Part shown: piece after piece, positions 5,749 through 23,398 of the stretch
Layout of the letters: every line of letters begins with the position of its first letter
Position numbering within the stretch: position 1 is the stretch's first letter
Assembly (NCBI RefSeq): GCF_013388355.1
Contig: NZ_CP058246.1
Span: 372,001-436,000, forward strand
DNA from: Flavobacterium sp. LPB0248
GTDB taxonomy: Bacteria; Bacteroidota; Bacteroidia; Flavobacteriales; Flavobacteriaceae
DNA length: 64,000 nucleotides
Direction: 5' to 3'
The notes under the pieces: model-generated
What the model was told of the DNA's origin: nothing
Databases searched by the model: none
What the model saw: only the letters and a program-made list of their open reading frames with translations
Made by a program: the position numbers and the translations under genes

Positions 5749-5878
5749 TTATAAGACAAATATAGTCTTATAGACTATTAGAAAGCTTGTCTTGTCTGTC
5801 TCAATAAATCTACAACGTTGTAGATTTAAAACTACAAACCGTGATTTCTGATTTATGTTTGCTAAGTTTGTCTTATAA
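5749..5878. promoter_or_regulatory. Divergent promoter region with shared TAnnTTTGTCTTATAA motif and palindrome
   Basis: Both divergent genes carry the same 16-base pattern at the start region: minus strand TATATTTGTCTTATAA (5764 to 5749) and plus strand TAAGTTTGTCTTATAA (5863-5878). The -7 box TAnnTTTG is directly followed by TCTTATAA in each. Between them, 5806-5827 is a perfect 22-bp palindrome with half-site AAATCTACAAC. ATAAGAC (5751-5757) and GTCTTAT (5765-5771) form a further perfect dyad around the minus -7 box. The plus element ends 10 nt before ATG 5889. Confidence 0.65.
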
Positions 5879-5888
5879 TTTTAGTCAG

Positions 5889-8800
5889 ATGCCAAAAATA
5901 GCGGTTCATATTTTACGTTACTGTTGTTTTCTGCTGTTGCTTACTACAACTAAAATGATCTGCCAAGAAAACTACTTGGCGAGATGGTATACTGCGGATA
6001 ATAATGAACTGCAACAGAATAGTATAAAAGCAATAGTTCAAGGCAAACACAATTTTATATGGATGACTACCGAAAATGGTATTGTTCGTTATGATGGAAA
6101 TAATTTTCTTGTTTTTAATTCTTCCAATACCTCTTTAGAACATACTCGTTTTACCGATATTTTTGGAAGCATTGAAAAAGACAGTCTCACAAGTTATAAT
6201 GAAAGCAAAAAAGAACTTGTCTTCATTAAAAATGCCAAAGTCCAGATACTTAAAAAAGATGCTCCAAAATCTAGTTTGGTGCGAAACGGAAGGCATTTCT
6301 TCTTTCATGATGGTCTTCCATCCAACTATTCTATTAATCAGCATGAGCCTTATTATATCAGATTATCTAATGGAAATATATTCTTTATAGACAACCAAAC
6401 CATTGAATTATGCGATTCTAAAATGAAAAGCATTTCTAAAACTCCTTTTAAAAACGATAATATTTTTAATTTTTTCGCAATCAGCAATTCTCTTTTTTAC
6501 CTAACCGATAACGGCTATTATCATTGTTTTTCTCAAAAAGCTGAATCTTCAGGAAAGCTGAATATAATACCAACTAAGAATCGTAAGTTATTCTGGAACA
6601 TCACAACAGGTCAGGTTTTTCTATCTGTAAAGAATAAAATTTATCAGTTAAAAAATCAAAATGACCAATTAACTGCTCAATTAATTGTCGAATACAAAGA
6701 TTTTGAAACAAGCAATATTATCGCAGTTTATTTTGATCCGAAAAATAAAAAACTGTACTTAGGAAGCGGCACAAACGGATTGTGCATTATTTCTTTTCCT
6801 ACTTTTAAAACCATAAAAAAAAGTAAAGAGAGAACCGAAGTTTACTACGCTGCGCAAACTTTTAGCGATAGTACCGTAATCACTTCTGAAGGATTGATTA
6901 TAAACGACAAAAAAGTGATTGACAGCATTCCTTTTCCTAAAAGTGTTTTTTTGGATGAACGGCTAAATATTGCTCTCGACGATGAAAAAAATATATGGAT
7001 CAGCCGAGCCATGAAAGTACTTTGCTATCTAAAAAAATCGGGATACAAAAAATATGTCACCTACCCTTTTGATCAAAATCCGAAAACCATATTTAAAGAT
7101 AATAGCAATACCATTTGGGTCTCTTTAGGAATAGACGAGTTTCATAAACCTAAATTGTATGCTATAAAAAACGGAATTGTAAAGCTTGAAGCCGTTTTTA
7201 AAAACAACATCAACTATATCGTTCAGCAAAACAATATTTTGTATTTGGCTGGAGATAACGGACTGTTTTTGTATGATTTAAAAACTAAAAAACTACATTT
7301 TGCAAAAAACACTAAAAACATAAACATTCGAAGCGTTTTTATAGACAGCAAGCAAAAAGTATGGCTTACAACATATGAAAAAGGCTTCTTTCTTTATGAA
7401 AACCAGAAACTGTATTCTTTTCCAACAGACGAAGAGCATTATCTTAATTCTGCTCATTGTATTATTGAAGACAAAAACGAATTTTTCTGGATATCAACCA
7501 ACAAAGGACTTTTTCAGGTTTCTAGAAAAGCGTTGCTACACCATTACAAAAATAAAAATACGGTTATATATTACCATCAATACAATAAAGCAGACGGTTT
7601 TCTGATTAATGAATTTAACGGCGGCTGCCAACCTTGCGGGAATTTTCTAAAAAACAATGATATTGTTTTTCCATCTATGAATGGAATTGTTTTTTTTAAT
7701 CCGTATAAAGTATCTCCTTTACTTCCTGGCAAAGACCTTTTTATTGACAGAGTTGTTCTCGACCAGAAAATAATTACTCCGAAAGATACTATTGTCTTAA
7801 AAAACAATTTTCAACGCGTAAGTTTTTTGGTTTCGTATCCTTATTACGGAAATCCAAAAAATGTAGCCATCGAAGCAAAAATGGACAGAATTGGAAGTGA
7901 TCGCTGGGAACGATTGAAAGCCGATAAATCAATTTCTTTTACGACATTGCCACCTGGAACTTATACGCTTACCTTTAGGAGTTTATCTGGTTTTGATGCC
8001 AATTATGCTTATAAAACTGTCATTCTTGTTGTACCTGCAAAATTTTATCAGACCATTTGGTTTGCTGTTCTTTGCTGTTTTCTTGCCGCCGGTTTTGTAA
8101 TTTCACTTTGGCATATACGATTGTATTACCAAAGAATGAAAAGAAGACAGCTGGAAGAAGTAATTGCTAAAAAAACAAAAAAATTAGCTTCTACCGTTAA
8201 AAAACTAGAAAAAGCAGAAAACAACTTAAAACAAAAAATTAAACAGCACGAAATGTTGGTTAAAAGCATGAGCCATGATATCAAAAGCCCGCTGAAATTC
8301 TTGTCTTCTTCTATTAAACATCTTTCTGAAAACAATACCATTCAAGAAGATCAGAAACTTAAACAGCAATTGGGAACTTTGCAGACTTCTACCTCTCAAT
8401 TATACGAATATGTAGAAAATCTTATCAAATATTCTTCTATTTTTATTGAAGGAAAAAAACTGGAAAATGAAAGTTATTCTTTGTATGAATTGATTGAGGA
8501 ACGAATTCAGATTTTTGAAAAAATTGCCGAAGCAGAAAACATTTCCATTTTTAATAATGTAGAAAAAGATTTTCACGTACGAACAAACAAAACAGCACTT
8601 TCGATTATCATTCATAATTTAATTGATAACGCCATAAAAAATACCAAAAATGGAAAAATTGAGCTTTTATGTACAACCAAAAAGGCTCTTCTAATCTTAA
8701 AAATTATAGATAATGGTAAAGGAATGAGCAAAGAGCTTATTGATTATTATCACAATTTTTATAAAAATCCGATTTCAAAAAATTATCATCTCGGACTTCA

Positions 8801-8900
8801 TATGATTATTGAGCTTCTTATTCTTATCGAGGGAAACATCAATATTATTAGTGATATTGATAAAGGAACTACGATCGAGATTATGGTCGAATACAACTAA
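5889..8900 (+). CDS. Propeller-type sensor histidine kinase
   Basis: 1003 residues from ATG 5889, chosen because the TAAGTTTG -7 box lies just upstream; a GTG at 5841 in the same frame is upstream of that box. Order: signal peptide or membrane segment (about 5-25), two-component-regulator propeller repeats filling most of the periplasmic part (recurrent IWxTTENGIxRYDG-like and FFWISTNKGLF-like blades), a Y_Y_Y domain ending in LPPGTYTLTFRS, one membrane helix (about 718-745), a coiled coil, HisKA with MSHDIKSPL (His796) and an HATPase domain with NLIDNAIKN and DNGKGM. There is no receiver or HTH domain, unlike the hybrid versions of this architecture. Such sensors detect extracellular polymers or oligosaccharides. 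It is convergent with, and overlaps by 4 bp, the LuxR-type response regulator, a plausible partner. Confidence 0.88.
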   Translation: MPKIAVHILRYCCFLLLLTTTKMICQENYLARWYTADNNELQQNSIKAIVQGKHNFIWMTTENGIVRYDGNNFLVFNSSNTSLEHTRFTDIFGSIEKDSLTSYNESKKELVFIKNAKVQILKKDAPKSSLVRNGRHFFFHDGLPSNYSINQHEPYYIRLSNGNIFFIDNQTIELCDSKMKSISKTPFKNDNIFNFFAISNSLFYLTDNGYYHCFSQKAESSGKLNIIPTKNRKLFWNITTGQVFLSVKNKIYQLKNQNDQLTAQLIVEYKDFETSNIIAVYFDPKNKKLYLGSGTNGLCIISFPTFKTIKKSKERTEVYYAAQTFSDSTVITSEGLIINDKKVIDSIPFPKSVFLDERLNIALDDEKNIWISRAMKVLCYLKKSGYKKYVTYPFDQNPKTIFKDNSNTIWVSLGIDEFHKPKLYAIKNGIVKLEAVFKNNINYIVQQNNILYLAGDNGLFLYDLKTKKLHFAKNTKNINIRSVFIDSKQKVWLTTYEKGFFLYENQKLYSFPTDEEHYLNSAHCIIEDKNEFFWISTNKGLFQVSRKALLHHYKNKNTVIYYHQYNKADGFLINEFNGGCQPCGNFLKNNDIVFPSMNGIVFFNPYKVSPLLPGKDLFIDRVVLDQKIITPKDTIVLKNNFQRVSFLVSYPYYGNPKNVAIEAKMDRIGSDRWERLKADKSISFTTLPPGTYTLTFRSLSGFDANYAYKTVILVVPAKFYQTIWFAVLCCFLAAGFVISLWHIRLYYQRMKRRQLEEVIAKKTKKLASTVKKLEKAENNLKQKIKQHEMLVKSMSHDIKSPLKFLSSSIKHLSENNTIQEDQKLKQQLGTLQTSTSQLYEYVENLIKYSSIFIEGKKLENESYSLYELIEERIQIFEKIAEAENISIFNNVEKDFHVRTNKTALSIIIHNLIDNAIKNTKNGKIELLCTTKKALLILKIIDNGKGMSKELIDYYHNFYKNPISKNYHLGLHMIIELLILIEGNINIISDIDKGTTIEIMVEYN

Positions 8901-9532
8901 CTTTTGAAAGTATTATATAACTTAATGAGTTCTACTAGATTATTGACTTTTAGTTTTTCAAAAACTCTTGCTTTGTAGGTACTCACAGTAGACATATGAA
9001 TGTTGAGTTTATTTGAAATTTCTAAATTGCCATTTCCCTCCACTAAAAGGGCTGTAATTTGAAGCTCTCTTTTAGACAACCCTTCTAACGGATTTAAAGT
9101 TTTTTTGCTTGTTTTAATATTGACTAATTTGCTAACCAGTTCTGAAGAAATATAAGTCCCAGACTCAAAAATGGAAGTAATAGCAAACATGATTTTTTCT
9201 TCACTGCATAGTTTATCTACATAACCGTTGGCACCAGAAGAAAGGTATTTTAAAGCATATTGTTCTTCTTCATGAGCCGAGAAAACCAATATTTTGACAT
9301 CGGGCTGAATCGCTCTAATGTCGGTTATCATATCGGTATTTTTTCCTCCCGGAATATTAATATCTAAGATAACTAAATCAAAAGGCAGATTTTTTAAAAG
9401 TGTAATCGCTTCAAAGAAATTTTCAGCATTAGAAATGGCAACATCTTCAAATTGCCTTTCCAAAATCATAGCAACTCCGTTTCGCACCACCAAATGATCA
9501 TCTACTATTAAAATCTTCTTTGTCATTTTCAT
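8897..9532 (-). CDS. NarL/LuxR-type response regulator
   Basis: 211 residues. Receiver domain with acidic pocket VDD at residues 10-12, phospho-acceptor Asp57 (VILDINIPGG) and conserved Lys in YVDK; linker; then a LuxR-type HTH from about 145 (LSKRELQITALLVEGNGNLE, then STVSTYKARVFEKL). It is the last gene of a six-gene minus-strand cluster, overlapping the glycosyltransferase by 1 bp, so translation is probably coupled. It also overlaps the end of the convergent propeller kinase gene by 4 bp. It probably transmits the signal of that kinase or of the hybrid kinase at the head of the cluster to transcription; targets are unknown. No obvious terminator lies at its 3' end. Confidence 0.92.
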   Translation of the reverse strand: MKMTKKILIVDDHLVVRNGVAMILERQFEDVAISNAENFFEAITLLKNLPFDLVILDINIPGGKNTDMITDIRAIQPDVKILVFSAHEEEQYALKYLSSGANGYVDKLCSEEKIMFAITSIFESGTYISSELVSKLVNIKTSKKTLNPLEGLSKRELQITALLVEGNGNLEISNKLNIHMSTVSTYKARVFEKLKVNNLVELIKLYNTFKS

Positions 9533-10962
9533 TATTTCTTGGTAAATCCTTTTCTGGTCATTTCGCCCCAGCCTTTGGTTCCCATAATTTTTTCCTTATA
9601 ACCAATTAACGCTGCATAAACCGTAAGCGGATGAAAGTAAAACGGTTCTATAAAAGCCGCCATTAGCAACTTAAAAAAATCGGTTTGTTTGGGATATTTA
9701 TGATAGGTTTTTTCTTCGCTGTACAAAGCAATCACCGAAAAGAACACTGCAAAGGTATATACAAAAAGCAGCAGTAAAAAGAAAAAATACCAGTTTAGCA
9801 AACCTAATATTATAAACACTGCAGTGATAACCAAACCAATAAACTCTATTGCAGGAGCCAGAAATTCAAACAAAGTCCAATATGGAACGCTTAACATTCC
9901 TAATAATTTGTATTTTGGATTTAAGAACATTCCACGATGAATGCTCAATGTTTCTATCGTTCCTCGCATCCAACGAGAACGCTGTTTTTTAAATATATTG
10001 AAATCTTCAGGCGCTTCGGTCCAACACAACGGATCTGGAATATAACTTACCGAATAAGGCAGTTTATTATCCAACATAAAGCGGCGCATTCTTACAATGA
10101 GCTCCATATCTTCTCCGACCGTTTTGGTACTGTAACCACCAGAAAGTATAGCAATTTCTTTATCAAAAGCTCCAAAGGCACCGCTTATCAGCAATAATCC
10201 ATCTAGTTTCCCCCAAGCCATTCTTCCTAATAGAAAAGCTCTAAGATATTCTAAAACCTGAATTCTCGATAGCATTACATCTGGAACATTTACTTCGACC
10301 AAACGTCCGTTTTTAATGATACATTGGTTGGCAATTCGAACTACTCCTCCAGTTGCAATAATACGTTTTCCGTACGATTCTAAAAATGGTTTTGCGAGTT
10401 TTAAAAGCGAATCTTTATCGAGAATACAATCGACATCAATACAAACAACATACGGATTTTGCGCAATATTTAGTCCGACGTTTAAGGCATCGGCTTTACC
10501 TCCATTTTCTTTATCAACGACAATCAGTTTTTTGAAAGCCGCATTTCTTGAAGTATAAATTCCTCTGATTTTTTTGGTTTCAATTTTCGGATGAAATTCC
10601 AAATCAGTCAAAACAAGATCGTAGGTTTTAGTCAAGATTTCCATTGAATTGTCTTTACTTCCATCATTAACCACAATAACCTGATAATTATTGTAATTCA
10701 GCGAAAGCAGCGATTTTACATTCTCTTCAATCGTAAGACCTTCATTGTAAGCCGGAGCAATTAGCGAAAGATGAGGAGCAAATTCACTAGTCAACAAAAC
10801 ATCATAATCGACAAAACTGTTTCTTTTAAGATACTTTCTCAGCTCTTTTGTAGAAAGATAAGCCAAGATTAGGTACGAAGACATGATAAGTATGGCGTAA
10901 CCGAGAATAAAGAGTATATATGCCTCTAAAAACCACGTTATTTCTGTATTAAAAAAAGTCAT
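9532..10962 (-). CDS. Processive family 2 glycosyltransferase (PgaC/BcsA-like)
   Basis: 476 residues. N-terminal membrane helix or pair (about 8-40), cytoplasmic GT-A domain and three to four C-terminal membrane segments (about 355-425 and a reentrant part near 445). All processive-synthase motifs are present: Asp100 (VVNDGSKD), DVD at 176-178, GED with Asp285, and QRSRW at 327-331. The family polymerises UDP-sugars and moves the chain across the inner membrane (PNAG, cellulose, hyaluronan); the product here cannot be named. No PilZ domain is present. It overlaps the downstream response regulator by 1 bp and follows the HEAT-repeat gene by 11 bp, in one cluster with a TPR/barrel outer-membrane protein that could be the exit channel. 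Confidence 0.88.
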   Translation of the reverse strand: MTFFNTEITWFLEAYILFILGYAILIMSSYLILAYLSTKELRKYLKRNSFVDYDVLLTSEFAPHLSLIAPAYNEGLTIEENVKSLLSLNYNNYQVIVVNDGSKDNSMEILTKTYDLVLTDLEFHPKIETKKIRGIYTSRNAAFKKLIVVDKENGGKADALNVGLNIAQNPYVVCIDVDCILDKDSLLKLAKPFLESYGKRIIATGGVVRIANQCIIKNGRLVEVNVPDVMLSRIQVLEYLRAFLLGRMAWGKLDGLLLISGAFGAFDKEIAILSGGYSTKTVGEDMELIVRMRRFMLDNKLPYSVSYIPDPLCWTEAPEDFNIFKKQRSRWMRGTIETLSIHRGMFLNPKYKLLGMLSVPYWTLFEFLAPAIEFIGLVITAVFIILGLLNWYFFFLLLLFVYTFAVFFSVIALYSEEKTYHKYPKQTDFFKLLMAAFIEPFYFHPLTVYAALIGYKEKIMGTKGWGEMTRKGFTKK

Positions 10963-10973
10963 TTCTTGTTCAA

Positions 10974-11795
10974 TTATACCGTTAATGTCTGCAAAAGACT
11001 CTGGGCTTTGTATTTAATTACAGTGTTTGAAGTATGTTCTGCCAAATGAGCCACATAAGGAAGCTTCTGTGTTAGCTTAAGTTCTTTTATAAGTTTTAAA
11101 CCAAGTGCAATTACTGTTGTGTTTTGCGATTCTAATAAATGCTCAACTCCTTCCGTATCGCCAATATCATGTTTTTTGAAAGCTCCAATAATATTCAGCT
11201 GCATCCAATCGTCTATAGGGTCTGAATGCTTTACTAAATATTTTATGCTCCGTCCTCCTTCAAGTTTGATAGCGGCACTTAGAGCAACAATCTTTAGTGT
11301 TTTTTTTCTGGCTTTAGAACAGGATACAATTGGAACAAATGCTTCTTTAATATTAAATTCTGCCAATTCGGTAATCCCTTTACATTTTACTTCCCATTTT
11401 AGGCTTTTAAGTTTTCGAAAAGAAACTTTTATCAAGTGGGAATCTTTATAAAACTGCTCTAGTTTTTGAGCATAAACACCTTCGTAGTTTTTATGCAGAT
11501 TGATAAGAGATTCTGTCAAAACTTCTCGAAAAAAAGGTGTATCAAAAAGCATTTGAAAATTCTCGTCTCCTTTAATTTTTGAAAAAGGAACATCTTCAAA
11601 AATAACGGCCGACAATATTTTATCTATTATAACACTGTATTCTTTACTAAGTCTTTCCTTTTTAATTTTACTGTTTCTGCTGGCCACAATAACGAGATAT
11701 AGAACAAGTGAAGCCGCAACGAACAGATAAATAGAAAAGGTAAGAAAAGGCACTTCCCATTGGCCGTTTTTATATAGATTCCAGATTTCTGTCAT
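10974..11795 (-). CDS. Membrane-anchored HEAT-repeat protein
   Basis: 273 residues: a short N-terminus, one membrane helix (about 17-39), then a basic stretch (SRNSKIKKERLSKEY) that by the positive-inside rule puts the rest in the cytoplasm. Residues about 125-270 are alpha-helical repeats of HEAT type (LKWEVKCKGITELAEFN, KKTLKIVALSAAIKLEGG, WMQLNIIGAFKKHDIGD, TTVIALGLKLIKELK). HEAT arrays are protein-binding scaffolds and no catalytic motif is seen. It sits between the YaiO-type outer-membrane gene (1-bp gap) and the synthase (11-bp gap). I infer a role in assembling or regulating the synthase, perhaps by contacting a receiver protein; this is not shown by sequence. Confidence 0.75.
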   Translation of the reverse strand: MTEIWNLYKNGQWEVPFLTFSIYLFVAASLVLYLVIVASRNSKIKKERLSKEYSVIIDKILSAVIFEDVPFSKIKGDENFQMLFDTPFFREVLTESLINLHKNYEGVYAQKLEQFYKDSHLIKVSFRKLKSLKWEVKCKGITELAEFNIKEAFVPIVSCSKARKKTLKIVALSAAIKLEGGRSIKYLVKHSDPIDDWMQLNIIGAFKKHDIGDTEGVEHLLESQNTTVIALGLKLIKELKLTQKLPYVAHLAEHTSNTVIKYKAQSLLQTLTV

Positions 11796-11796
11796 A

Positions 11797-13011
11797 TTAA
11801 AAACGTTTCGTTACAATTAACTGGACATTAAACTTGTTTCTATATTCTCCTGGAATATATTCTTCGTATTCGTAAAGGAAAATCGGACGCACAAAAAACG
11901 AATCGCCAAAACGATGCTGATACTGAATTCCAACACGATATGCTTTTAGCGGTTGCGTAAAATTATTGTATAAATAGAGATAAGGAACATTTCCGTATTG
12001 CAATTCCAATCTTATTAAGCGCTCTTTTTCTTCATTTACTCGCTGAACACTCAAAACATGAGAAAACAATTCGTTCGAAATATCGTAATAAGGTCTATAA
12101 GCAAAACTGTAAATTCCGGCGTGATAGGCAACTTGTCCTGTTAGCAGCGTAATATCGTCTGTATCAAAATGCATGAATCGTCCTCCAAGCGAAAAATCAA
12201 ACTTTTTCTGTGGCTTAAAATAATATTCTAAACCTGCTTTGGCTACAGGAAATATTGTTTCTCCTGTTGATACGCCAGCATTTGCATACAAATAGCTTTT
12301 GTTTGAAAAGGTCTGATAGAAATCGGTTTCAAACAACATTTGAGTTTCATTGCCAATATTTCCAATATTTGCTCTTCCTACGATTGCCGATTTGCTGAAT
12401 TTATGCGAATACTCTACATATCCATAATGAAATGGCTGCTGTCCAGAATCTGAAGTTGAGATATTTAAATAGGAAGCCGAAACTGTATTTTTGACTTTAC
12501 GTCCAATAAGTGTGCGTATTCCGCTAAAAGCTTGAGTACTATTATCAATATAAGATGCTTTTTCGATTAAATCTAAAGCTTCCTGATCGCGATTTAGTTT
12601 CTCCAGACAAGTGGCTTTAATCTTTAAAACATCAATAGATTTTGGATCAATAGCCAGATATTTATCACAGTAAGAAATGCATTTTTCGTAATCTTCGGTC
12701 CAGAAATAAACATTTAGAAGTGCTTGCAAAGCTTCAGGATTTGGATTGTTTCTGTCTGCCATTGGAGACAAAATCTTTATGGCAGTTTTATATTCTTTTT
12801 TCCAACTATAGATACGTCCTGCGTATGTCTGTATATCTTCATTTTCAGGATATTTGGCACGCAGAGGCTCAATAATCGATAAGGCTTTATCAAAATTTTC
12901 TTTTTCGACCTCGCGCTTCACATTAGCTAAAGCTTCGTCTATATTGATTTCTTGCGCAATTGCAACAGAAGAAATAAAAAGCAGGAAAATAGAATAATAA
13001 ATAAACTTCAT
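11797..13011 (-). CDS. YaiO-family outer membrane protein with TPR domain
   Basis: 404 residues. Signal peptide ending VAIAQ, then TPR-like helical pairs (about 22-150; AGRIYSWKKEYKTAIKILSP, YFWTEDYEKCISYCDKYLAI), then a YaiO-type beta-barrel of about 240 residues with alternating aromatic strands and a C-terminal Phe (LIVTKRF), the usual outer-membrane insertion signal. A periplasmic TPR scaffold followed by an outer-membrane barrel is the layout of the polysaccharide exporters PgaA and BcsC, though this barrel is smaller. With a processive glycosyltransferase two genes away, export of the polymer is the most attractive role. It overlaps the CheY-like gene by 1 bp. Confidence 0.82.
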   Translation of the reverse strand: MKFIYYSIFLLFISSVAIAQEINIDEALANVKREVEKENFDKALSIIEPLRAKYPENEDIQTYAGRIYSWKKEYKTAIKILSPMADRNNPNPEALQALLNVYFWTEDYEKCISYCDKYLAIDPKSIDVLKIKATCLEKLNRDQEALDLIEKASYIDNSTQAFSGIRTLIGRKVKNTVSASYLNISTSDSGQQPFHYGYVEYSHKFSKSAIVGRANIGNIGNETQMLFETDFYQTFSNKSYLYANAGVSTGETIFPVAKAGLEYYFKPQKKFDFSLGGRFMHFDTDDITLLTGQVAYHAGIYSFAYRPYYDISNELFSHVLSVQRVNEEKERLIRLELQYGNVPYLYLYNNFTQPLKAYRVGIQYQHRFGDSFFVRPIFLYEYEEYIPGEYRNKFNVQLIVTKRF

Positions 13012-13376
13012 CAGATTCGGGTTTTTAGTAATTTATTAATTCTCACTAAAAGTACTGCCGGACTTACTGGTTTAGCAATAAATTCATTTGCTCCGATATC
13101 AAAAGAATCGAGCTCAGTTTGCTCAACGCCCGAAGAAGTCAATATAATTACAGGAATATCAGATTTAAGGTTTTCTCGTACGTGCTGCGTAATTTCCATT
13201 CCGCTAACACCCGGCATGTTTATATCAGTCAATATTAAATCATAGTTTTCTTTTTCGATCGCTTCAAGCGCCTCTTTTCCGTCAGAAAACTGGTCAACAC
13301 TAAATCCTTTAGACTCTAAGAAAAAAGATAACGATTTGCGTAGGATATCATTATCTTCGGCTACAATAATTCTCAT
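13011..13376 (-). CDS. Single-domain (CheY-like) response regulator
   Basis: 121 residues consisting only of a receiver domain: acidic pocket EDND at 7-10, phospho-acceptor Asp51 (LILTDINMPG), Thr/Ser in VIILTSS and the conserved Lys in FIAKPVSP. There is no output domain, so it must act by protein contact or pass phosphate on. It lies 75 bp after the hybrid kinase with HPt domain and overlaps the YaiO-type gene by 1 bp. The natural reading is a phosphorelay: hybrid kinase, HPt, this receiver, then control of the secretion machinery. That order is inferred from gene layout. Confidence 0.92.
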   Translation of the reverse strand: MRIIVAEDNDILRKSLSFFLESKGFSVDQFSDGKEALEAIEKENYDLILTDINMPGVSGMEITQHVRENLKSDIPVIILTSSGVEQTELDSFDIGANEFIAKPVSPAVLLVRINKLLKTRI

Positions 13377-13451
13377 TTTTTATTTTTTTATCTGGGGGAT
13401 ATTCAAAATTTAAACATCTTTATTATAAAGCTACTGCATATTTCTTTTATA

Positions 13452-15437
13452 TCATAGCTCTTTCAAAATTTTAACGACTTCTTCAATTCCGCAATGAAAA
13501 ATATTCACTTTATCTAATGTTTCGGCAGTAAATTCGCCAGATGACGCTTCTTCTTCGATAATCGACAAACAATTACTTAAATCTTGCAGCATAAAAATAT
13601 CCATGCTTGATTTCATATTATGCGCCAATTTTTTTACGCTGTCGTAATCGGTATTTTTAAAGGCTTCTTCTAACTGTGCCGACTGACTTGGAATCTTTTC
13701 AATAAAAAGACCTATCATATCTTGCCTAAATTCGGGATCGCCTCCAGACATATCATCCAAAAAAGACAAATCAATAATTCTTTTATGATGTGCATCACTG
13801 TCTGGTGTCATTACCGTTTTTATGGCTTTTAAAAGTATCGACTGTTTAAAAGGCTTTGGTACATAAGCATTCATTCCCACTTTGTAGCATCGCTCCTGCT
13901 CTCCTACTAGAGAATGTGCTGTCATGGCAATAATTGGTATGCTGGAATTCATTTCATTCCTGATATATTCTGTGGTTTGGTAGCCATCTTTTACAGGCAT
14001 CTGCAAATCCATTAAAACCAAATCATAGTTATTTTGAGACAAAAGTTCAATGCCTTCTTCACCGTTTTGTGCAATATCCAAATCGAAGCCAAAATTATTA
14101 ATTACGCTTTTTGCAAGCTTTTGGTTTAAAACATTGTCTTCGCAAAGCAATATTTTAAGATTTCCTAAATCATTTTTAGAAACCGTTTTTACCGTTGTTT
14201 CTTCAAAGTTTGATTTTTTGTACGAAAGGGTAAAGAAAAACTCTGAACCACGATTTAGAGTACTTTTTACGTGAACTTCTCCTTTCTGAAGCTCTACTAA
14301 CTGTTTTACAATATTCAGTCCAAGTCCGGTACCGCCAAATGTTCTTGTAGTACTTTCTTCGCCTTGTGTAAAACGTTCAAAAATAGTTTCGAGTTTATCT
14401 TTTGGGATTCCGATTCCGGTATCTTTTATAGAAAACTTAAACGAGTAACTGTCTTCCGTTTCCTCTATTTTCTTTACCGAGACGGTTACTTCTCCTTCAT
14501 TTGTAAACTTAAGCGCATTACCGATAAGGTTTACCAAGATCTGATTTAATCTTCCTTGATCGCCAACAACCAAATCTGGCAATTCGGCATCAAGAAAAAG
14601 ATTAAACTCAACGTCTTTCTGTGCTTTTACTTTGAGTAAACTATAAACATGTTTAAGTGTTTTCTTTAGATTAAATGGCTCAGATTCTATAGGTAAATTT
14701 CCTGATTCAATTTTTGAAAGATCTAGAATATCATTTACAATCAGAAGCAGATTTTCGCCTGCAATTTGTACACTTGCAATATAATCTCGCTGTGTATCAT
14801 CTAGTTCGGTCTGCGCAAGTAAATCTGTAAATCCGATAATGGCGTTTAATGGCGTTCTAATTTCGTGGCTCATATTAGCCAAAAAACTATCTCTCGCCAA
14901 AACGGCACGTTCGGCAATTTTTCTCTGTGTATATAACTGATTGTTTTTTGTGCTTAATTCCAGCTGTGCAATAACATGTTTTGCAATAATAGAAAGTGCA
15001 TTACGCTGATTCTCATTCAGTTCTTTTGCTACATGATCAATAGCGCACAATGTTCCAATATTATAACCGTCTGGCGTTGTAAGTGGTACACCAGCGTAGA
15101 ATCTCACATTGAAACCTCCCGTAACATTTGGATCGTCTTTGAATCTATCGTTGACATGTGTATCATTAATTTCTACAATTTCTGTATCTAAAATAGTGTA
15201 ATTGCAGAAAGTGATTTCACGGGGCACTTCCGAAACTCCAATTCCAATCTCCGATTTAAACCATTGCCTGTCTTCATCGATAAAAGAAATATGGGCTATT
15301 GGTACGCCGCAGATATAAGAAACAAGCTTTGTAGCATCGTCAAAAGCATTGTCTGGAAGCGTATCTAGTATGTTATAACGTTTAAGGGCTGCTAAACGCT
15401 GTAGTTCGTTTTCTGGAATGGGGTAATCTTTATTCAT
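13452..15437 (-). CDS. GAF-domain hybrid sensor histidine kinase with HPt domain
   Basis: 661 residues without membrane segments, so cytoplasmic. Order: GAF domain (about 25-160; begins with the common ELQRLAALKRYNILDTLPD block), HisKA with His191 (NMSHEIRTPLNAI), HATPase (N-box NLIGNALKFT, DTGIGIP, GTGLGLNIVKQL), receiver with Asp477 (VLMDLQMPVKDG) and Lys in PKPF, and a C-terminal HPt with His606 (LAHNMKSSMDIF). It has all modules for a full phosphorelay and could phosphorylate the CheY-like protein encoded next and the LuxR-type regulator at the end of the cluster. The GAF ligand is not evident. It is the first gene of the minus-strand cluster. Confidence 0.93.
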   Translation of the reverse strand: MNKDYPIPENELQRLAALKRYNILDTLPDNAFDDATKLVSYICGVPIAHISFIDEDRQWFKSEIGIGVSEVPREITFCNYTILDTEIVEINDTHVNDRFKDDPNVTGGFNVRFYAGVPLTTPDGYNIGTLCAIDHVAKELNENQRNALSIIAKHVIAQLELSTKNNQLYTQRKIAERAVLARDSFLANMSHEIRTPLNAIIGFTDLLAQTELDDTQRDYIASVQIAGENLLLIVNDILDLSKIESGNLPIESEPFNLKKTLKHVYSLLKVKAQKDVEFNLFLDAELPDLVVGDQGRLNQILVNLIGNALKFTNEGEVTVSVKKIEETEDSYSFKFSIKDTGIGIPKDKLETIFERFTQGEESTTRTFGGTGLGLNIVKQLVELQKGEVHVKSTLNRGSEFFFTLSYKKSNFEETTVKTVSKNDLGNLKILLCEDNVLNQKLAKSVINNFGFDLDIAQNGEEGIELLSQNNYDLVLMDLQMPVKDGYQTTEYIRNEMNSSIPIIAMTAHSLVGEQERCYKVGMNAYVPKPFKQSILLKAIKTVMTPDSDAHHKRIIDLSFLDDMSGGDPEFRQDMIGLFIEKIPSQSAQLEEAFKNTDYDSVKKLAHNMKSSMDIFMLQDLSNCLSIIEEEASSGEFTAETLDKVNIFHCGIEEVVKILKEL

Positions 15438-16388: not shown

Positions 16389-18668
16389 TTATCTTTTAAT
16401 AAATTTCTGTGTATACTTCGCTTTATCGGTTGCAATATTGATGATGTAAAATCCTTTGGCAAAATTACTTACGTCAATTTGATTGTTATTTAATCTGGTA
16501 TTGATCGTTCTTCCATTAACATCATAAATCACAACATCTGTAATTTCATCTTCAGTACTGATATTTAGATAATCTGAAACTGGATTTGGATAAATTGATA
16601 ATTGCACTTTCGTGAATTCATCTCTGCCTAAAACCGCTGTATCAACCAAAATCGATTTTTCGACTATTTTACCATTTGAGTTAAAACTGATTACAATTGT
16701 CGCAGTTCCTCCTATTTTTGGTGTTAAAATCAGTTCTTCGTTTGTATTAATTTCTGCTGAAACAATAGTTTCATTACTGTTTGATTTTATCGTTTTTACA
16801 ATCGCTGCAGATAAATTGTCTTCATCTGAAACTACTGTTTTTAAATCAATGATTGTTGGACTTCCTGTTGAAAGTTGCGATGGCAGAATTGCATTTACAA
16901 CTGGTGCTGCATTATCTGGAAATACCGTCATGGCAGGAAACCAGTAATAATCGTTTAACGTTTTTGTATCGATCAATTTTCCTGTATTGTCAAAAGTATG
17001 AATCCAGTTTTTTTGGTAATGTGCTCCAAAACCGCTTTCTGTTGTGTTTACAATAATCTGATCTGAAACAGGATCGATTCTCAACGCTGCTCCATAAGGA
17101 ATTTGTTTAAAGCTTCCCGTTTGTCCCGGAAGTGTAGCAAAACTTTCATTGAATTTTTTGGTTGCCACATCAAACTTTATAATTTGAACGCCCGAAGTAA
17201 ATGCGTTAACAGAATTCATCCAATACAAAGCATTTTCTTTATTGCTATACGTAAAACTACCAGCATTCCATGCTCCCCAAGAGCCTAAATATTGAGTGGT
17301 TGGTATGGCATATTCAATAGTTGCAAAAGTCAACGGATCAATATTAATTATTTTCTTATTCTGGATTCCCCAGATGCTACCGTCTTTAGATTGTGTAACA
17401 GAATGAAACGCGCCTGTAATCGTTTTTACGACACTATTTGTTTTAGGATCAATGACCAAAATTCCACCATTTTGTTTTACTGCAAATACATATTGAGAAG
17501 TACGAATCATGTTTCCAATCTGCCCCGCATACTGACTTCCTCCTCCTGTTCCTGCAATGAGAGTTCCCACTTTCATATTGGCAATATCAAAAGTAAAAAC
17601 TCCATTTGAAGCGCCTATATATCCCGTTTTTTCATCAACTCCAACAAAAGAACGACCGTCTCCTCCTCCAATATTATCAAACTCTGCAAGGGTTTTCATC
17701 GTTAAAGCATCGGCAACAACTAGTCTTCCGCCAGGAGTATATTGTGTATCACCTCCATCTTTAGCCTGTTTAGAAACAAAATAAAATTTATCTCCATAAA
17801 TAGTTCCGTATTGCGTTGTAGCACCAAAAGCTTTATTTTCATTTACATCACTATACACTCTATAATTAATTTTCCCGTCATTGGTGACAAAATTTACAGA
17901 TCCATTGGTGTGGCCAAACCATTCTTCGTTTACCATGAAATACCCTTTTGTAAAATCTACGGCATTCGAATACGGTGTGACAGGAGTAAATGCTGCAATT
18001 GGTTCTTCTGCAAACGAAACATTAAAATTCCAGACGTCCCAAGAACCATCTTGTAAAACTCGGCTCGATGCGCCTAAACCAGAATAATCAAAACCGTTAT
18101 TCACATCATCTCTTACCCAATAAGACCAGTATCCTTTAGCCGTCCAGCCAGACTGCCAGTGATCTGATGCATCAATTGGTGTATATTCGTCAAAATCATA
18201 AACGGTTGTATTTACAATACCACTTACAGGATAATAAGGATAGGTTAGGTTTCCGCTTTTGTACAATCCGATTGTGTTGGTTCCATCCAAATCGAAACCG
18301 AATCCTCCAATTGCAGTTCCAAATTGTGTTCCCTGCAATAAAAGAGTATAAAAACGAGGGTCAGCTTTGGCAATGGCTTTCATCATATCTTCGCCAGTTG
18401 CATTTCCATCCCATTTAAATCCCCAGATTAGTGCGTCTGCATTTTTTCCGTCATTCCATTGCACGGCAAATGCTGCTTTATTGGCACCGCTACCAACCCA
18501 AAACTGAATATCATCAAAAGTGGTTGCATTGGCACTTTTTGCTGTTAGTTGCTGTTGCGTCGCTGTTTTTAATTTGATGTCATTTCTAGGAACGCCTTGC
18601 ACTTTTATTTGTGCGTGGGTTAGAAATGCAAAAAATAGCATTATTACTATAAAGTAGTTTTTCTTCAT
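16389..18668 (-). CDS. T9SS-exported propeller protein with DUF5074-like region
   Basis: 759 residues: signal peptide ending LTHAQ; an N-terminal domain (about 45-230) opening DDIQFWVGSGANKAAF and containing GWTAKGYWSYWVRDD, of a kind I also recall from PEP-CTERM proteins; a YncE/DUF5074-like beta-propeller (about 235-600; repeated IDPKTNSVVKTITGA-like blades); a cadherin/Ig-like linker; and a type A sorting domain (YPNPVSDYLNIS ... GFYIINIATDKAKYTQKFIKR-like end) of about 75 residues. It should be secreted by T9SS and anchored at the cell surface. It is the last gene of the riboswitch-led B12 operon, 26 bp after the lipoprotein gene. A role as an additional surface cobalamin binder is inferred from context and propeller resemblance to BtuG-type proteins. 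Confidence 0.8.
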   Translation of the reverse strand: MKKNYFIVIMLFFAFLTHAQIKVQGVPRNDIKLKTATQQQLTAKSANATTFDDIQFWVGSGANKAAFAVQWNDGKNADALIWGFKWDGNATGEDMMKAIAKADPRFYTLLLQGTQFGTAIGGFGFDLDGTNTIGLYKSGNLTYPYYPVSGIVNTTVYDFDEYTPIDASDHWQSGWTAKGYWSYWVRDDVNNGFDYSGLGASSRVLQDGSWDVWNFNVSFAEEPIAAFTPVTPYSNAVDFTKGYFMVNEEWFGHTNGSVNFVTNDGKINYRVYSDVNENKAFGATTQYGTIYGDKFYFVSKQAKDGGDTQYTPGGRLVVADALTMKTLAEFDNIGGGDGRSFVGVDEKTGYIGASNGVFTFDIANMKVGTLIAGTGGGSQYAGQIGNMIRTSQYVFAVKQNGGILVIDPKTNSVVKTITGAFHSVTQSKDGSIWGIQNKKIINIDPLTFATIEYAIPTTQYLGSWGAWNAGSFTYSNKENALYWMNSVNAFTSGVQIIKFDVATKKFNESFATLPGQTGSFKQIPYGAALRIDPVSDQIIVNTTESGFGAHYQKNWIHTFDNTGKLIDTKTLNDYYWFPAMTVFPDNAAPVVNAILPSQLSTGSPTIIDLKTVVSDEDNLSAAIVKTIKSNSNETIVSAEINTNEELILTPKIGGTATIVISFNSNGKIVEKSILVDTAVLGRDEFTKVQLSIYPNPVSDYLNISTEDEITDVVIYDVNGRTINTRLNNNQIDVSNFAKGFYIINIATDKAKYTQKFIKR

Positions 18669-18694: not shown

Positions 18695-19897
18695 TTAGTT
18701 AAGATGTAAATCGTAAGCGCCTGAAACTTCTGTAGAAACTTCGCCAAGCCAGCCTGCTTCCTGATTGATTGCAGTGTATATTTTTACGAAATCTATTCCA
18801 GGAAGTTTTACGTATTTTCCGTTTTTATCGACTGCCCAAGAAATATCAATATTCGAAGCTTCATCATTATTTGGTGCATTATCGGCATAACCAAATTCAA
18901 AAGATTTGCCTACCCAATATGAACCTTCGCCACTTTGATCGTAGAAATTATCGGCTATTCGCGTTCCTTTTAAAGTATAAGACGTATCGACAATCCAGAG
19001 CGGGTAATAACTTTGGTCATGAAACACATTTTGTGATTTATAAGCTGAATTTCCAGCATTGTCCTGCCATTTGATATATTCGGTGTTAACCTGCCAAAAC
19101 TCGTTTCCTGCAGCTGGCAATTTGTTTGGATCTGGTTTGAAATAAGTAATCGAGTAATTTTTTGTAGTCGTATTTTTAAAGTATTCGCTTCCAGCAATTT
19201 CATACCATTCGTCTTCGTCTGGTTTTCCATTTTTATTCTTGTCGTAAGCCACCATAATAATTCCGGGTTCACAAGATCCTGCACGCGCTTCGTTGGCTTC
19301 ATTTCCCCAAAAAGCATTTCCTAAAACTTTAAAATCTCGTCCGTTCATGTTCGGAATGGTGTGATCGAAACCAAAAACCACATAACCGCCAAAACCACCT
19401 AGCGAAATCATTGTGGTGTTGGAACCCACAATTGCTTTTTTCGCTGCAGAAATTATGCTGGCTTCTGTATTTCCTGATGTATATAGTGGAATTTCGTTTG
19501 TGAATTGTCCAACTGCGGGACGAAAATCAAATACATTAGAAATATATTTACTGTATGTTCCTGTTTCTTTTATCACATTTATGGATGCGTTATAAATCTT
19601 GGTTTCTCCATTTACTTCAACTTTTAAAGTCAATGGATAACTTTTTTGAAACGGACTTATAAAATCCAAATCGGCATTTTCTGAGATAATCGAATCTTTA
19701 ATGCTCCAAGTCAGTTTTGCCGTACTTGGAAGATCTGTTGCAATATTCAGAACTTTAAAACGATCAATTGTGTAGTTTTCCTTCAGCACTTCTGCTGGAA
19801 GCAGATTTTCTTCATTGTCATTATCCTTATCGCAAGAAACAAATCCTACGAAAAGAATTAAAAACAGAGCGATTTTAAAAAAAGCTTTATTCATCAT
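18695..19897 (-). CDS. Surface lipoprotein of the B12 locus
   Basis: 400 residues with a lipoprotein signal (LFVGFVSC, lipobox Cys at residue 22), a PKD/Ig-like segment (about 40-110), then a globular domain with FDFRPAVGQFTNE, GGFGGYVVFGFDH and a Ca-binding-like loop DKNKNGKPDEDEW. Proteins of this kind are usually called cell-surface proteins and accompany BtuB-like receptors in Bacteroidota; I cannot assign a named fold. It lies between the propeller lipoprotein (3-bp gap) and the T9SS propeller protein in the riboswitch-controlled operon. Surface exposure and help in cobalamin capture are inferred from position and lipidation, by analogy with BtuG and BtuH. A second ATG immediately after the first makes the start uncertain by one codon. 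Confidence 0.78.
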   Translation of the reverse strand: MMNKAFFKIALFLILFVGFVSCDKDNDNEENLLPAEVLKENYTIDRFKVLNIATDLPSTAKLTWSIKDSIISENADLDFISPFQKSYPLTLKVEVNGETKIYNASINVIKETGTYSKYISNVFDFRPAVGQFTNEIPLYTSGNTEASIISAAKKAIVGSNTTMISLGGFGGYVVFGFDHTIPNMNGRDFKVLGNAFWGNEANEARAGSCEPGIIMVAYDKNKNGKPDEDEWYEIAGSEYFKNTTTKNYSITYFKPDPNKLPAAGNEFWQVNTEYIKWQDNAGNSAYKSQNVFHDQSYYPLWIVDTSYTLKGTRIADNFYDQSGEGSYWVGKSFEFGYADNAPNNDEASNIDISWAVDKNGKYVKLPGIDFVKIYTAINQEAGWLGEVSTEVSGAYDLHLN

Positions 19898-19900: not shown

Positions 19901-21046
19901 TTAATTTTTAGTTATAAAAGCAATATGAGCGGGAATATTTCCTGCGGTTGTTTTCCATTTTAGTTTTCCATCTGGCGTAAAACAGTAGATATAGCCTGTT
20001 ACAACGTAGTTTTGCGCATCGGTAATGTAGATTTCTTTGGTTTCAGGATTAACCTGAAGTCCATACGGAATCATGATTTTTTTGTCGGTTCCATCAGTGA
20101 TAATCTGATTGGTAATTACTTTTTTGGTTTTAGTATCCAAAATCCCATAACTCACTTTATTACTGCCTGATAAGTAACTCCAAGAAACGCTGTAGTAATA
20201 CAACAAATCGTCAACGAGACAGGTTCCAGAAACAGGAATATCGAGCTGCATTTTCTTTTCGTCTGTCTGTGTATCAATCACAAAAAGATTAGATGGCGTG
20301 TTGTAGTAATCGCCTCGCGAACTGACGTAAATATCACCGCGGCTGTCAATCTGCATGCTGTACAAATTAATGCCCACATCTATTTTTTTGATTTCTGTGA
20401 AAGTCGCCAGATCAATAACCGAAACAGTTCTATCGTAATTTGGAACTCTGTAACCGCCAGAATTTGCGACATACAATTTTCCGTTATGAACAACCATTTG
20501 TTCAGGCTGATAACCAACGGTTACTTTTCTCTTTAATTCTAATGAAGTGGTATCAATTTCGGCCACAAAACCGATTTCTGCATTCGGATTAATGGCAACT
20601 GGTCCCGAATAAGAACTCACATAGGCTTTGTCTTTATAAAAAGCCATATAACGACAATTCGGAATGTCTATTTTTTTGATGCGTTTTGCCGTCCACTTTT
20701 CTAAAACCTCCACTTTGTTGGAGCAATTTATAACTGCATAAACCTTATTCCCGTAGATTTTAATATCGTTTCCAACATCTCCCAATTCTTTTACGACACT
20801 AGGGTTTCGTTCTGAATATACATCTGTGGTATAATTTCCTGTTCGGTAATTAAAAACATCCAGACTCGCACGATTCATTCCCATATTTCCTTCGTTTAAA
20901 AGATAGAAACCTTCAATATTTCCGTCACTTCTGGGTGCGGCAACGGCAGTATCGGAAGAAAGAAATACAGTTTCATCTTCACGGCAGGAAATCATCAAAA
21001 CCGTTACGGCTAAAACAAATAGTATTTTTAAAAAGCTCTTTTTCAT
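19901..21046 (-). CDS. YncE/DUF5074-type propeller lipoprotein (BtuG-like)
   Basis: 381 residues. Lipoprotein signal with lipobox VLMISC, then a single beta-propeller: FYLLNEGNMGMNRASLDVFN opening, followed by blades of the YVANSGG...TVSVIDLATFTEIKKIDVG type. In Bacteroides, BtuG is such a surface-exposed propeller lipoprotein; it binds cobalamin very tightly and caps BtuB. The start codon overlaps the end of the TonB-receptor gene by 4 bp (ATGA), so the two are translationally coupled, as expected for a receptor and its lid. Identification as BtuG-like rests on fold pattern, lipidation, coupling and the riboswitch; residue-level cobalamin contacts cannot be checked here. Confidence 0.82.
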   Translation of the reverse strand: MKKSFLKILFVLAVTVLMISCREDETVFLSSDTAVAAPRSDGNIEGFYLLNEGNMGMNRASLDVFNYRTGNYTTDVYSERNPSVVKELGDVGNDIKIYGNKVYAVINCSNKVEVLEKWTAKRIKKIDIPNCRYMAFYKDKAYVSSYSGPVAINPNAEIGFVAEIDTTSLELKRKVTVGYQPEQMVVHNGKLYVANSGGYRVPNYDRTVSVIDLATFTEIKKIDVGINLYSMQIDSRGDIYVSSRGDYYNTPSNLFVIDTQTDEKKMQLDIPVSGTCLVDDLLYYYSVSWSYLSGSNKVSYGILDTKTKKVITNQIITDGTDKKIMIPYGLQVNPETKEIYITDAQNYVVTGYIYCFTPDGKLKWKTTAGNIPAHIAFITKN

Positions 21047-23094
21047 AACTCAAAACTGATTATAAATTTGAATGTTCGCCCTGGCATCGGGTAATTGTAA
21101 ATCACTTCATATTGCTGATTAAAAGCGTTGTTGATTTCAATCGTTCCGTTTAATTTGTAATTTTTAAATGCGAAAGATTTCTGAACCGCCAAATCGTGTG
21201 TGTACCACGGCTGTACTTCGTTTACTTTAATATTATTGACATTTCCGTTGTAACGCTTTCCGACATAAATGAAGCTGTAATTGAAGTTCCAAGATTCATA
21301 ATTGGCATTCAAAATCCCAGATCCGCTATGCCAAGGCGTGTACGGAATCTGATCTCCGTAAGAAGACATTTCTAAACCGACAATTTTTGTAAAATCCTGA
21401 CTTTGAGAATACGTATAGGTTAAGTTGGCATCTAATTTTAACTTATTAAAATGAGTTCCCATATTGAGAACCGTTTCGATTCCTTTTCCTTTTACTTGTC
21501 CGATATTAGTCATCATCCAACGAAATAAATTTCCAGTCGGAGCCGCAACAATTTTGTCTTTTGTATTGGTATAATAAGCATCTGCCTGAAAAGAAAATTT
21601 GTCGAAAAAACTTTCCCTTACCGGGAAATTATACGTAAAACCAACATCGTACTGATTCATATATTCTGGCCTCAAAGTGCTCGAACCAATCATGGTATAA
21701 TACAAATCGTTGAAAGTTGGCATTCTGAAAATACGTTTGGCAAATGCTCTTAAATTGAAATCATATTTTTTAAAAGGCGTGTAGCCTAGAAATATAGCGG
21801 GCGTAAATTCAGTTTTATTGGGAGCTTTGGCATTGTATTCTACTTCCTCAATGACACGGGTTCCTAATACATTTCCTAAAACTTTAAAACCTTCATATCG
21901 ATACGAAGTTGCTAGAGAAACAAGCGCTGTATAACGTTGTGGAAAAGAGAATTGTGTTTGGATTCCTCTTCTTGTCGCATTTAGTTTATTGTATTGAAAA
22001 TCGGTCGACAGCGAAACATCCCAAGTGGGTAAAATGCTGTACATATTGACTGCAGAGAAATAAGCTTCCTGTTGAAAATAACTGTCATCAGATTGTGCTC
22101 CTTCGGTTACGGTTTCGCCTAAAACATTAGTCGTATCTCGTGCAATATAATGGGTATAATCGTAAGCGAATTTTCCTTTTATCTGGAATTTATATTTTTC
22201 TGAAACATCTTTAGTTAAAGAAGACTGTCCGAAAAAGTTCTTATCAAATTGTCTGAAACCGTCTTTAAACTTGTTTTCTACAATTGCTCCCGGTGCACCA
22301 CGTTCAGAATCATAATAATATACTTTAGCATCCCACGTTCCCTTGTTTATTTTTCCATACAAACCAGATTCAAATCGGAATGCTTCTATATCGCTGTTCC
22401 ATCGAGTAGCTGTGGTATCGTAGGCAATGCTTCCGTCTTGGTTTTTTCTTTTGTATCTAAATTTATACTGTCCGTTTGATTTGATGTATTCAGAACTTAC
22501 GCTTAAACTTACTTTATCGCTCAGCTTTTGTTCCCATCTAAAAGAAGGATCATGATAATTAATGGACATTGTTTTGTAACGAACCAGTAGATTCGTTTTT
22601 TTATTGCCAATAAAAACAGGACGTTTGGTTCGCAAATAAATGGTAGAAGCAGCTGCAAAGTCTTTTGCTGACTGGAAAATTTCGCTTTTCTGGCCATTGT
22701 ACATCGTAAGCGATTCCATATCGTCAAGCGAATACTTTCCTAGATCGGTTACGCCGTTTTGTGCATTTCCCAGCTGAATTCCGTCATAAAAAACACCAAC
22801 ATGATGCGTTCCCATATTACGAACATCAACTGTTTTGAGTCCACCAACACCTCCATAATCTTTGATTTGTGTTCCCGCAAAATAACGAAGCGCATCGGCA
22901 ACATTATGACTGGAAAGATTTTCGAGCAGAACACCCGAAAGGCTTTGAACAGGAATAACTTCCTGATAAGGCTTTCCTTTTAGAATAACTTCTTTCAAAA
23001 CCCGCGAACTATCGGTCACTGCTTGGGAATGAAGCAAAAAAGGAATCAATAAAACAAAAGTTGCAAGAAGCGTTTTTCTAAAATTATACATCAC
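21043..23094 (-). CDS. btuB: TonB-dependent outer-membrane receptor, BtuB-like
   Basis: 683 residues: signal peptide ending LLHSQ, a short N-terminal stretch with a TonB-box-like VLKEVILKG, plug domain (about 45-150; ADALRYFAGTQIKDYGGVGG, VDVRNMGTHHVGVFYDGIQL), then a 22-strand-type barrel ending in Phe-rich FKFIISFEL. There is no carboxypeptidase-like N-terminal extension, so it is not a SusC-type receptor. A cobalamin riboswitch in its leader (23212-23392) and a co-transcribed BtuG-like lipoprotein make cobalamin or another corrinoid the likely substrate. First gene of the operon. The symbol is by function, not by close similarity to E. coli BtuB. Confidence 0.87.
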   Translation of the reverse strand: MMYNFRKTLLATFVLLIPFLLHSQAVTDSSRVLKEVILKGKPYQEVIPVQSLSGVLLENLSSHNVADALRYFAGTQIKDYGGVGGLKTVDVRNMGTHHVGVFYDGIQLGNAQNGVTDLGKYSLDDMESLTMYNGQKSEIFQSAKDFAAASTIYLRTKRPVFIGNKKTNLLVRYKTMSINYHDPSFRWEQKLSDKVSLSVSSEYIKSNGQYKFRYKRKNQDGSIAYDTTATRWNSDIEAFRFESGLYGKINKGTWDAKVYYYDSERGAPGAIVENKFKDGFRQFDKNFFGQSSLTKDVSEKYKFQIKGKFAYDYTHYIARDTTNVLGETVTEGAQSDDSYFQQEAYFSAVNMYSILPTWDVSLSTDFQYNKLNATRRGIQTQFSFPQRYTALVSLATSYRYEGFKVLGNVLGTRVIEEVEYNAKAPNKTEFTPAIFLGYTPFKKYDFNLRAFAKRIFRMPTFNDLYYTMIGSSTLRPEYMNQYDVGFTYNFPVRESFFDKFSFQADAYYTNTKDKIVAAPTGNLFRWMMTNIGQVKGKGIETVLNMGTHFNKLKLDANLTYTYSQSQDFTKIVGLEMSSYGDQIPYTPWHSGSGILNANYESWNFNYSFIYVGKRYNGNVNNIKVNEVQPWYTHDLAVQKSFAFKNYKLNGTIEINNAFNQQYEVIYNYPMPGRTFKFIISFEL

Positions 23095-23204
23095 GATTTA
23101 ATTAAATAAACTTTGCGTGATGCCGTAATTATATAACAGTAGTAATCCCGCTATGCAATAGCAGGTTATTTCTTGTCATCAACTTCATACCACGAAAGTT
23201 TTAA

Positions 23205-23395: not shown

Positions 23396-23398
23396 GGG

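Follow-up and report, generated by a model that had tools for sequence, protein, structure and literature searches.

How the synthesis of a surface polysaccharide might be controlled in bacteria that are poor in cyclic di-GMP (c-di-GMP) is the question raised by a compact gene cluster of Flavobacterium sp. LPB0248, which lies in a stretch of 64,000 nucleotides (contig NZ_CP058246.1, positions 372,001 to 436,000; hereafter the window). The minus strand of the window carries six ORFs (open reading frames) between positions 8897 and 15437, and five of these form a coherent unit, coding for a hybrid histidine kinase (HK), a stand-alone CheY-like receiver (REC), a YaiO-family outer-membrane protein, a HEAT-repeat protein and a processive-type family 2 glycosyltransferase (GT2). 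The most constant feature of this unit is the pairing of HEAT with GT2, and we give an even chance to the reading that this pair serves to produce and secrete a polysaccharide of the cell surface, controlled by a phosphorylated receiver rather than by c-di-GMP.

All six ORFs were recovered where a preliminary description of the locus had placed them, and its claim of tight packing is borne out. The HK gene (13452..15437, 661 aa) is separated by 75 bp from REC (13011..13376, 121 aa), which overlaps the YaiO gene (11797..13011, 404 aa) by 1 bp; a gap of 1 bp leads to HEAT (10974..11795, 273 aa) and one of 11 bp to GT2 (9532..10962, 476 aa), which in turn overlaps by 1 bp the gene for a NarL/LuxR-type response regulator (8897..9532, 211 aa) that we do not count as part of the core.

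The window HEAT protein has no match to any Pfam model at E<=0.1, and it owes its name to three converging lines of evidence: its homologues match Pfam HEAT_2, a profile search initiated with it recovers designed alphaRep/Armadillo proteins, and its AlphaFold model (predicted local distance difference test, pLDDT, 84.7) is a helical solenoid that follows a predicted N-terminal transmembrane segment (residues 20-38). The fold search with this model gave three PDB matches at E<=0.001, all of them designed repeat proteins or complexes containing one. Homology and structure prediction hence point to membership in the HEAT/ARM-type helical solenoids. The genome has a single match to this family, and the best named homologues (83-86% identical) bear the genus name Flavobacterium. 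Some distant members are weak matches (e.g. 24 bits in Acidithiobacillus); all four unfused distant proteins that we scanned (L098, L105, L112, L118) exceed the Pfam cut-off for HEAT_2.

Among 60 related genomes, own included, HEAT was found in 24 and YaiO and GT2 (E<=1e-30) in 25 each; the latter two genome sets are identical, and HEAT is absent from only one member (G001). We read the neighborhoods of 20 of the 23 other HEAT-matching relatives (all but G003, G009 and G031), and in every one of the 20 HEAT adjoins GT2, usually with a short receiver gene close by. YaiO may stand before or after the HEAT-GT2 pair or on the opposite strand, and in a few cases it was not seen in the stretch. The gene-neighborhood comparison across Bacteroidota that the preliminary description had proposed thus shows a conserved association of the genes. 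As for the YaiO-HEAT-GT2 order, it persists among close relatives, as part of a REC-YaiO-HEAT-GT2 arrangement, but further afield only the placement of HEAT beside GT2 is widely kept. A set of 296 Bacteroidota genomes, with GT2 taken at E<=1e-80 and YaiO counted only over the family cut-off (69 of the 76 genomes with a match), contained GT2 in 70 genomes, YaiO in 69 and both in 69, versus 16 expected without correction for phylogeny. YaiO lies within 10 kb of GT2 at 67 of the 78 GT2 places in this set. By our first profile, 53 of these places have a same-strand HEAT gene no more than 1.5 kb away (67 HEAT rows used, those omitted being weak and not near GT2), and a wider profile run on the other 25 places added 22 more, giving 75 of 78 with HEAT beside GT2 and leaving L155, L156 and L157 without it under that profile.

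To look beyond the phylum we scanned GTDB with the GT2 alignment alone, taking the best 80 of at least 444 confirmed relatives; five loci without a called GT2 ORF (L100, L107, L108, L120, L127) and four with less than 400 bp upstream (L067, L075, L109, L121) were set aside, leaving 71. The matches come from Bacteroidota, Bacillota (Clostridium, Paenibacillus, Brevibacillus), Pseudomonadota (Mesorhizobium, Stutzerimonas, Lysobacter, Acidithiobacillus), Bdellovibrio, Myxococcota, Gemmatimonadetes, Terriglobia, Elusimicrobia, Sphaerochaeta and others. YaiO is present within 6 kb on either strand at 39 of the 71 loci; typical Bacillota have no outer membrane, and YaiO is therefore not expected there. 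At 63 of the 71, spread over many phyla, HEAT adjoins GT2, with both genes on one strand and no more than 300 bp apart. The two genes of such pairs (n=64) are separated by 4 bp or less, or overlap, in 48 cases, with a median gap of -2.5 bp.

Four of the eight loci without an adjacent HEAT gene (L116, L129, L130, L132) encode HEAT-GT2 fusions of 904-967 aa, in which an N-terminal hydrophobic segment and a HEAT part precede a C-terminal GT2. Their HEAT_2 matches range from E 2.7e-7 to 0.0019, with the gathering cut-off passed only by L130, and a joint profile of the four aligns to the HEAT family over 325 columns with a probability of 98.4. As for the remaining loci, L074 lies near a contig end, L080 has HEAT next to the leading gene of a tandem GT2 pair, and a search for HEAT at L106 and L128 found none. 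A position-blind search yielded 92 HEAT-family ORFs in 101 loci, all of which except the window's had been picked through GT2 or HEAT matches; five ORFs did not adjoin a called GT2, two of them at loci where the ORF caller had missed it. The distances among HEAT proteins correlate with those among GT2 proteins (r 0.84, 53 loci), a value that shared ancestry alone would yield and that, with no neutral control gene, proves nothing by itself. Although indirect, the support that the fusions lend to a physical partnership is strong, and we regard the HEAT-synthase partnership as well supported. The membrane-anchored HEAT protein of the preliminary description stands as a prediction, and the generic scaffold role assigned to it is better read as that of a synthase partner.

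The receiver is more constant than the kinase. A same-strand receiver gene is present no more than 4 kb away at 52 of the 71 loci; among the 64 HEAT-GT2 pairs it is directly upstream of HEAT in 28 and within the same distance and strand in 19 more. The phospho-acceptor Asp51 and Lys102 of the window protein are conserved in 57 and 58, respectively, of the 59 short receivers at these loci (window included), and these proteins therefore look phosphorylatable. Other receivers are embedded in larger proteins with two RECs or with HPt-REC-GGDEF-REC, GGDEF-REC or, in Sphaerochaeta, ODP-GGDEF-REC architectures. A Pfam scan of 11 REC proteins reported no DNA-binding output domain on any of them. The Sphaerochaeta protein (L130:6454-8466), whose gene stands directly before that of a HEAT-GT2 fusion, combines an ODP-type metallo-beta-lactamase fold with GGDEF and REC, which suggests that oxygen or redox state is the input. 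The window HK has HisKA, HATPase_c and Response_reg domains over the Pfam cut-offs, an HPt-like C-terminus just under it (23.6 vs 24.6 bits, E 6.1e-5) and a GAF_2 match well under it (17.9 vs 28.6 bits); its hydropathy profile shows no transmembrane segment, so that it appears to be soluble. Same-strand histidine kinases occur within 6 kb at only 15 of the 71 loci. Thus, of the phosphorelay originally proposed for this cluster, the receiver is a fairly constant part but a kinase nearby is not.

The passages of PMC7112194 that define synthase-dependent exopolysaccharide systems list an inner-membrane synthase, a c-di-GMP-binding regulatory domain or co-polymerase, periplasmic modification enzymes, and a periplasmic TPR (tetratricopeptide repeat) domain coupled to an outer-membrane pore; the well-studied Gram-negative machines described there have such a c-di-GMP-binding part. 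In the present case Pfam found no PilZ domain in the six window proteins, and neither GGDEF nor PilZ was matched anywhere in the genome (listed completeness 70.5%; EAL and HD-GYP were not searched), so that the regulatory element of that published definition was not found here. The same searches found GGDEF in eight and PilZ in five of 14 control genomes. The absence of c-di-GMP parts noted in the preliminary description hence extends genome-wide for the two families searched. Among the 60 related genomes GGDEF was found in one (G004), which lacks the cluster; 24 of the 60 keep both synthase and HEAT. GGDEF domains do accompany the module in other phyla, and independence of c-di-GMP is therefore claimed for this lineage only.

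The most economical reading of these observations runs from the kinase through the phosphorylated receiver and HEAT to GT2 and YaiO. The parts, their motifs, the adjacency, the fusions and the co-occurrence are shown by the sequences, whereas the folds of YaiO and HEAT and the membrane topology are predictions; we infer the phosphotransfer, the docking of receiver on HEAT, the sign of the regulation, the control of the synthase by the phosphorylated receiver, the identity of the polymer and the openness of the pore. Phosphate would travel within the hybrid kinase through REC and the HPt-like part and then pass to the stand-alone REC, whose phosphorylated form would bind to the HEAT solenoid in the cytoplasm. 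Tethered next to GT2, HEAT would in turn gate the active site or the channel of the synthase, a role comparable to that of PilZ and c-di-GMP in BcsA or of PgaD in its relation to PgaC. GT2 would carry the growing polymer across the inner membrane, after which the chain would be guided by the TPRs of YaiO and exit through its barrel.

We weighed against this the alternative that HEAT serves the synthase constitutively, as a subunit for assembly or as a co-polymerase comparable in role to PgaD or BcsB, with the kinase and receiver acting elsewhere (e.g. on transcription or motility) and being associated by linkage only. Such a subunit would account for the greater constancy of HEAT in comparison to REC and HK (63, 52 and 15 of the 71 loci) and for the existence of HEAT-GT2 fusions. 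It sits less well with the frequent placement of the receiver directly before HEAT, the retention of its phosphorylation site, and the lack of reported DNA-binding output domains in the scanned receivers, and we consider it unlikely, if still a serious contender.

If the receiver does control the synthase through HEAT, it would provide a direct route from two-component signaling to matrix synthesis, and might explain how biofilm polymers are regulated in c-di-GMP-poor bacteria. The same HEAT-synthase pair also occurs in Bacillota, Pseudomonadota, Myxococcota, Bdellovibrio and others. We further propose, with slightly less than even confidence, a widespread and undescribed class of polysaccharide synthases in which a receiver, and not c-di-GMP, acts on a membrane-anchored HEAT solenoid joined to the synthase. 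The export parts of this class would be exchangeable, with YaiO in Bacteroidota and other TPR proteins or none elsewhere, and HEAT would be fused to the synthase in some Spirochaetota and Bacillota. Two-component signaling would then drive the synthesis of sugar polymers directly and post-translationally from Flavobacterium to Paenibacillus. The model also offers a function and a testable complex for proteins named only by fold or family, namely YaiO, HEAT-repeat protein and family 2 glycosyltransferase. We found no description of a YaiO, HEAT or receiver module with GT2 in a literature search covering mostly open-access titles and the beginnings of abstracts; HEAT, YaiO and the receiver are not mentioned in the available passages of PMC7112194, nor YaiO in those of PMC9601211.

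The predicted properties of GT2 agree with those of an inner-membrane polysaccharide synthase as defined in PMC7112194. It matches PF00535 with 82.7 bits (Pfam cut-off 23.3), shows hydropathy peaks at residues 16-34 and 393-411, and contains an NDGS motif with D100, DVD at 176-178, GED with D285 and QRSRW at 327-331. These motifs are unchanged in all 16 rows of our alignment, and all four patterns were matched in 92 of the 102 GT2 ORFs of the wider set, but not in the other 10. The closest curated synthase model is PgaC/IcaA (TIGR03937), which scores 126.3 bits, below its cut-off of 422.3, and 107-155 bits on the synthases of four relatives; the cellulose synthase model (CelA, TIGR03030) gives 28.0 bits against a cut-off of 699.1. 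With PgaC/IcaA as the closest curated family, and for no other reason, our first guess at the polymer is a hexosamine-rich chain resembling poly-N-acetylglucosamine (PNAG). The same genome encodes a second likely hexosaminan enzyme, a GH18-polysaccharide deacetylase-GT2 fusion of 1145 aa (G000:C1:3607156-3610593; L158:7157-10594). We considered this as a competing synthase and set it aside as a separate locus with no HEAT, REC or YaiO matched nearby. Nor were HEAT, YaiO or REC matched at the eight GT2 loci outside the cluster that we read in this genome, over about 3.5 kb at each and over 18 kb at one of them.

The YaiO protein belongs by sequence to TIGR04390 (167.2 bits, cut-off 32) and PF19413 (129.9 bits, cut-off 23.9), and starts with a hydrophobic signal. 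Its AlphaFold model (mean pLDDT 89.2) shows about 4.5 TPRs and a 14-stranded β-barrel. Foldseek places BcsC in the top two positions (E 2.0e-10 and 8.5e-10), also recovers OmpG (1.8e-8), and has the polysaccharide exporter PelBC (9h80, E 4.9e-8) at rank 5 and entry 4y25, which we take to be PgaA, at rank 33. In the VIA alignment the barrel is nearest by Z, among the matches listed, to the FadL, OmpG and CymA channels, and none of the 50 matches given is BcsC, PgaA or PelB. The structural comparison with PgaA envisaged in the preliminary description therefore reveals a TPR-barrel similarity, and the logic of a synthase with a TPR-barrel partner, as in PgaA/PgaC and BcsC/BcsA, is upheld with BcsC as the best match. 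The likeness to known exporters is incomplete in that the barrel has 14 predicted strands, versus the 16- to 18-stranded barrels that the passages of PMC9601211 describe for synthase-dependent outer-membrane translocons. We predict that YaiO is an outer-membrane exporter of the TPR plus 14-stranded-barrel type, and family matches and model alike suggest that it corresponds to the periplasmic TPR and outer-membrane pore of the PMC7112194 definition. A Flavobacterium johnsoniae record codes for a YaiO protein with 85% identity to that of the window. One YaiO protein (P0217) that is 71% identical to that of the window is labelled Pseudomonas shirazensis, probably because the record is mislabelled or contaminated.

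A comparison with known systems shows where the cluster departs from each. It shares with BcsA-BcsB/BcsC the inner-membrane GT2 with D,D,D,QxxRW motifs and the TPR-barrel exporter, but has HEAT and REC in place of PilZ, and about 4.5 TPRs with a 14-stranded barrel where that of BcsC has 16 strands. The affinity to PelB/PelBC is limited to the Foldseek match, as the complete NCBIfam results for the YaiO, HEAT and GT2 proteins contain no Pel model. Escherichia coli, the only YaiO-matching genome among the 14 controls, has a barrel of the same family (TIGR04390), with YaiP and YaiS nearby; we know of no HEAT-GT2-REC module beside it. We also considered a divergent Pga/Ica-type PNAG system with a swapped regulator. 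PgaA likewise consists of TPRs and a barrel, and PgaC/IcaA is the nearest model to the synthase; however, that model's cut-off is far away, the PgaA model (TIGR03939) reaches only 22.6 bits of the 366.65 required and does so on the TPR part only, no deacetylase or PgaD was matched in the six proteins, and the deacetylase-GT2 fusion is a separate locus, all of which makes this origin improbable. Membership in Pga, Bcs or Ica was rejected on the curated cut-offs. Pfam finds no periplasmic modification enzymes among the six window genes; as these and the c-di-GMP part of the published definitions were not found, the predicted strand count differs and the PgaC, PgaA and CelA cut-offs are not reached, we do not assign the cluster to Pga, to Bcs or to the canonical synthase systems governed by c-di-GMP, and it is best called a variant of the synthase-dependent exopolysaccharide systems with a different control module. 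That GT2 decorates a lipid or envelope polymer instead of making a free exopolysaccharide, while the 14-stranded YaiO acts as a channel or receptor for a smaller substrate, would fit the FadL/OmpG/CymA-like barrel and the sulfatase/LtaS-superfamily proteins near GT2 in some relatives (see below), but is improbable given the processive-type motifs including QxxRW, the hydrophobic segments of GT2, its near-perfect co-occurrence with YaiO in Bacteroidota and the polysaccharide exporter in the top two Foldseek positions.

The neighboring genes of relatives gave nothing firm on the identity of the polymer. In a subset of relatives a sulfatase/LtaS-superfamily protein is fused to or next to GT2 (L043:7972-11409, L044:9500-11929, L060, L062, L064, L069), with TPRs seen in the case of L044. 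Enzymes of this type are known to move phospho-groups onto envelope glycans, and it is possible that these proteins act as phospho-group transferases on the polymer. Other neighbors include DUF4838 and GH65 proteins and, in one Paenibacillus, a UDP-glucose/GDP-mannose dehydrogenase; four large proteins beside Gram-positive modules had no Pfam matches. In L080, L087 and L097 DUF4838 proteins beside TPR or TPR-YaiO proteins of about 950-1000 aa mark another variant of the cluster, which in L080 has the two tandem GT2 genes.

The NarL/LuxR-type regulator (REC-GerE), which the preliminary description had counted as part of the system, is rejected as such. It is non-core because it is not found in the clusters of relatives: at E<=1e-60 seven of the 60 related genomes contain a match, one of them its own genome; identity in the remaining six is 49-57%, and in the five of these that carry the cluster the homologues are on contigs other than that of the cluster. 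In the nearest relative (GT2 95% identical) GT2 is directly followed by AraC and DUF417 genes, which are 94-95% identical to window positions 1676-2488 and 985-1596, respectively. The intervening segment of about 7 kb in the window (about 2.5-9.5 kb) is missing there; it codes for a cNMP (cyclic nucleotide monophosphate)-binding protein, an IlvD/EDD dehydratase, an F420-type oxidoreductase, a two-component propeller sensor histidine kinase (5841..8900, plus strand, 1019 aa as called), likewise non-core, and the NarL regulator. The latter overlaps the convergent propeller kinase by 4 bp, and our guess is that the two may form a pair.

Elsewhere in the window are an ORF of 2080 aa (24223-30465, minus strand), with a thermolysin-type M4 protease, MAM and type IX secretion tail domains, and one of 3731 aa (43692-54887, plus strand). 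A cobalamin riboswitch (Rfam RF00174, 107.5 bits; 23201-23404, minus strand) lies upstream of a gene for a TonB-plug protein (21043-23094), which is followed downstream by a weak PKD-like match (18695-19897) and a DUF5074 protein with a type IX secretion system (T9SS) tail (16389-18668). This region looks like a B12-controlled uptake cluster.

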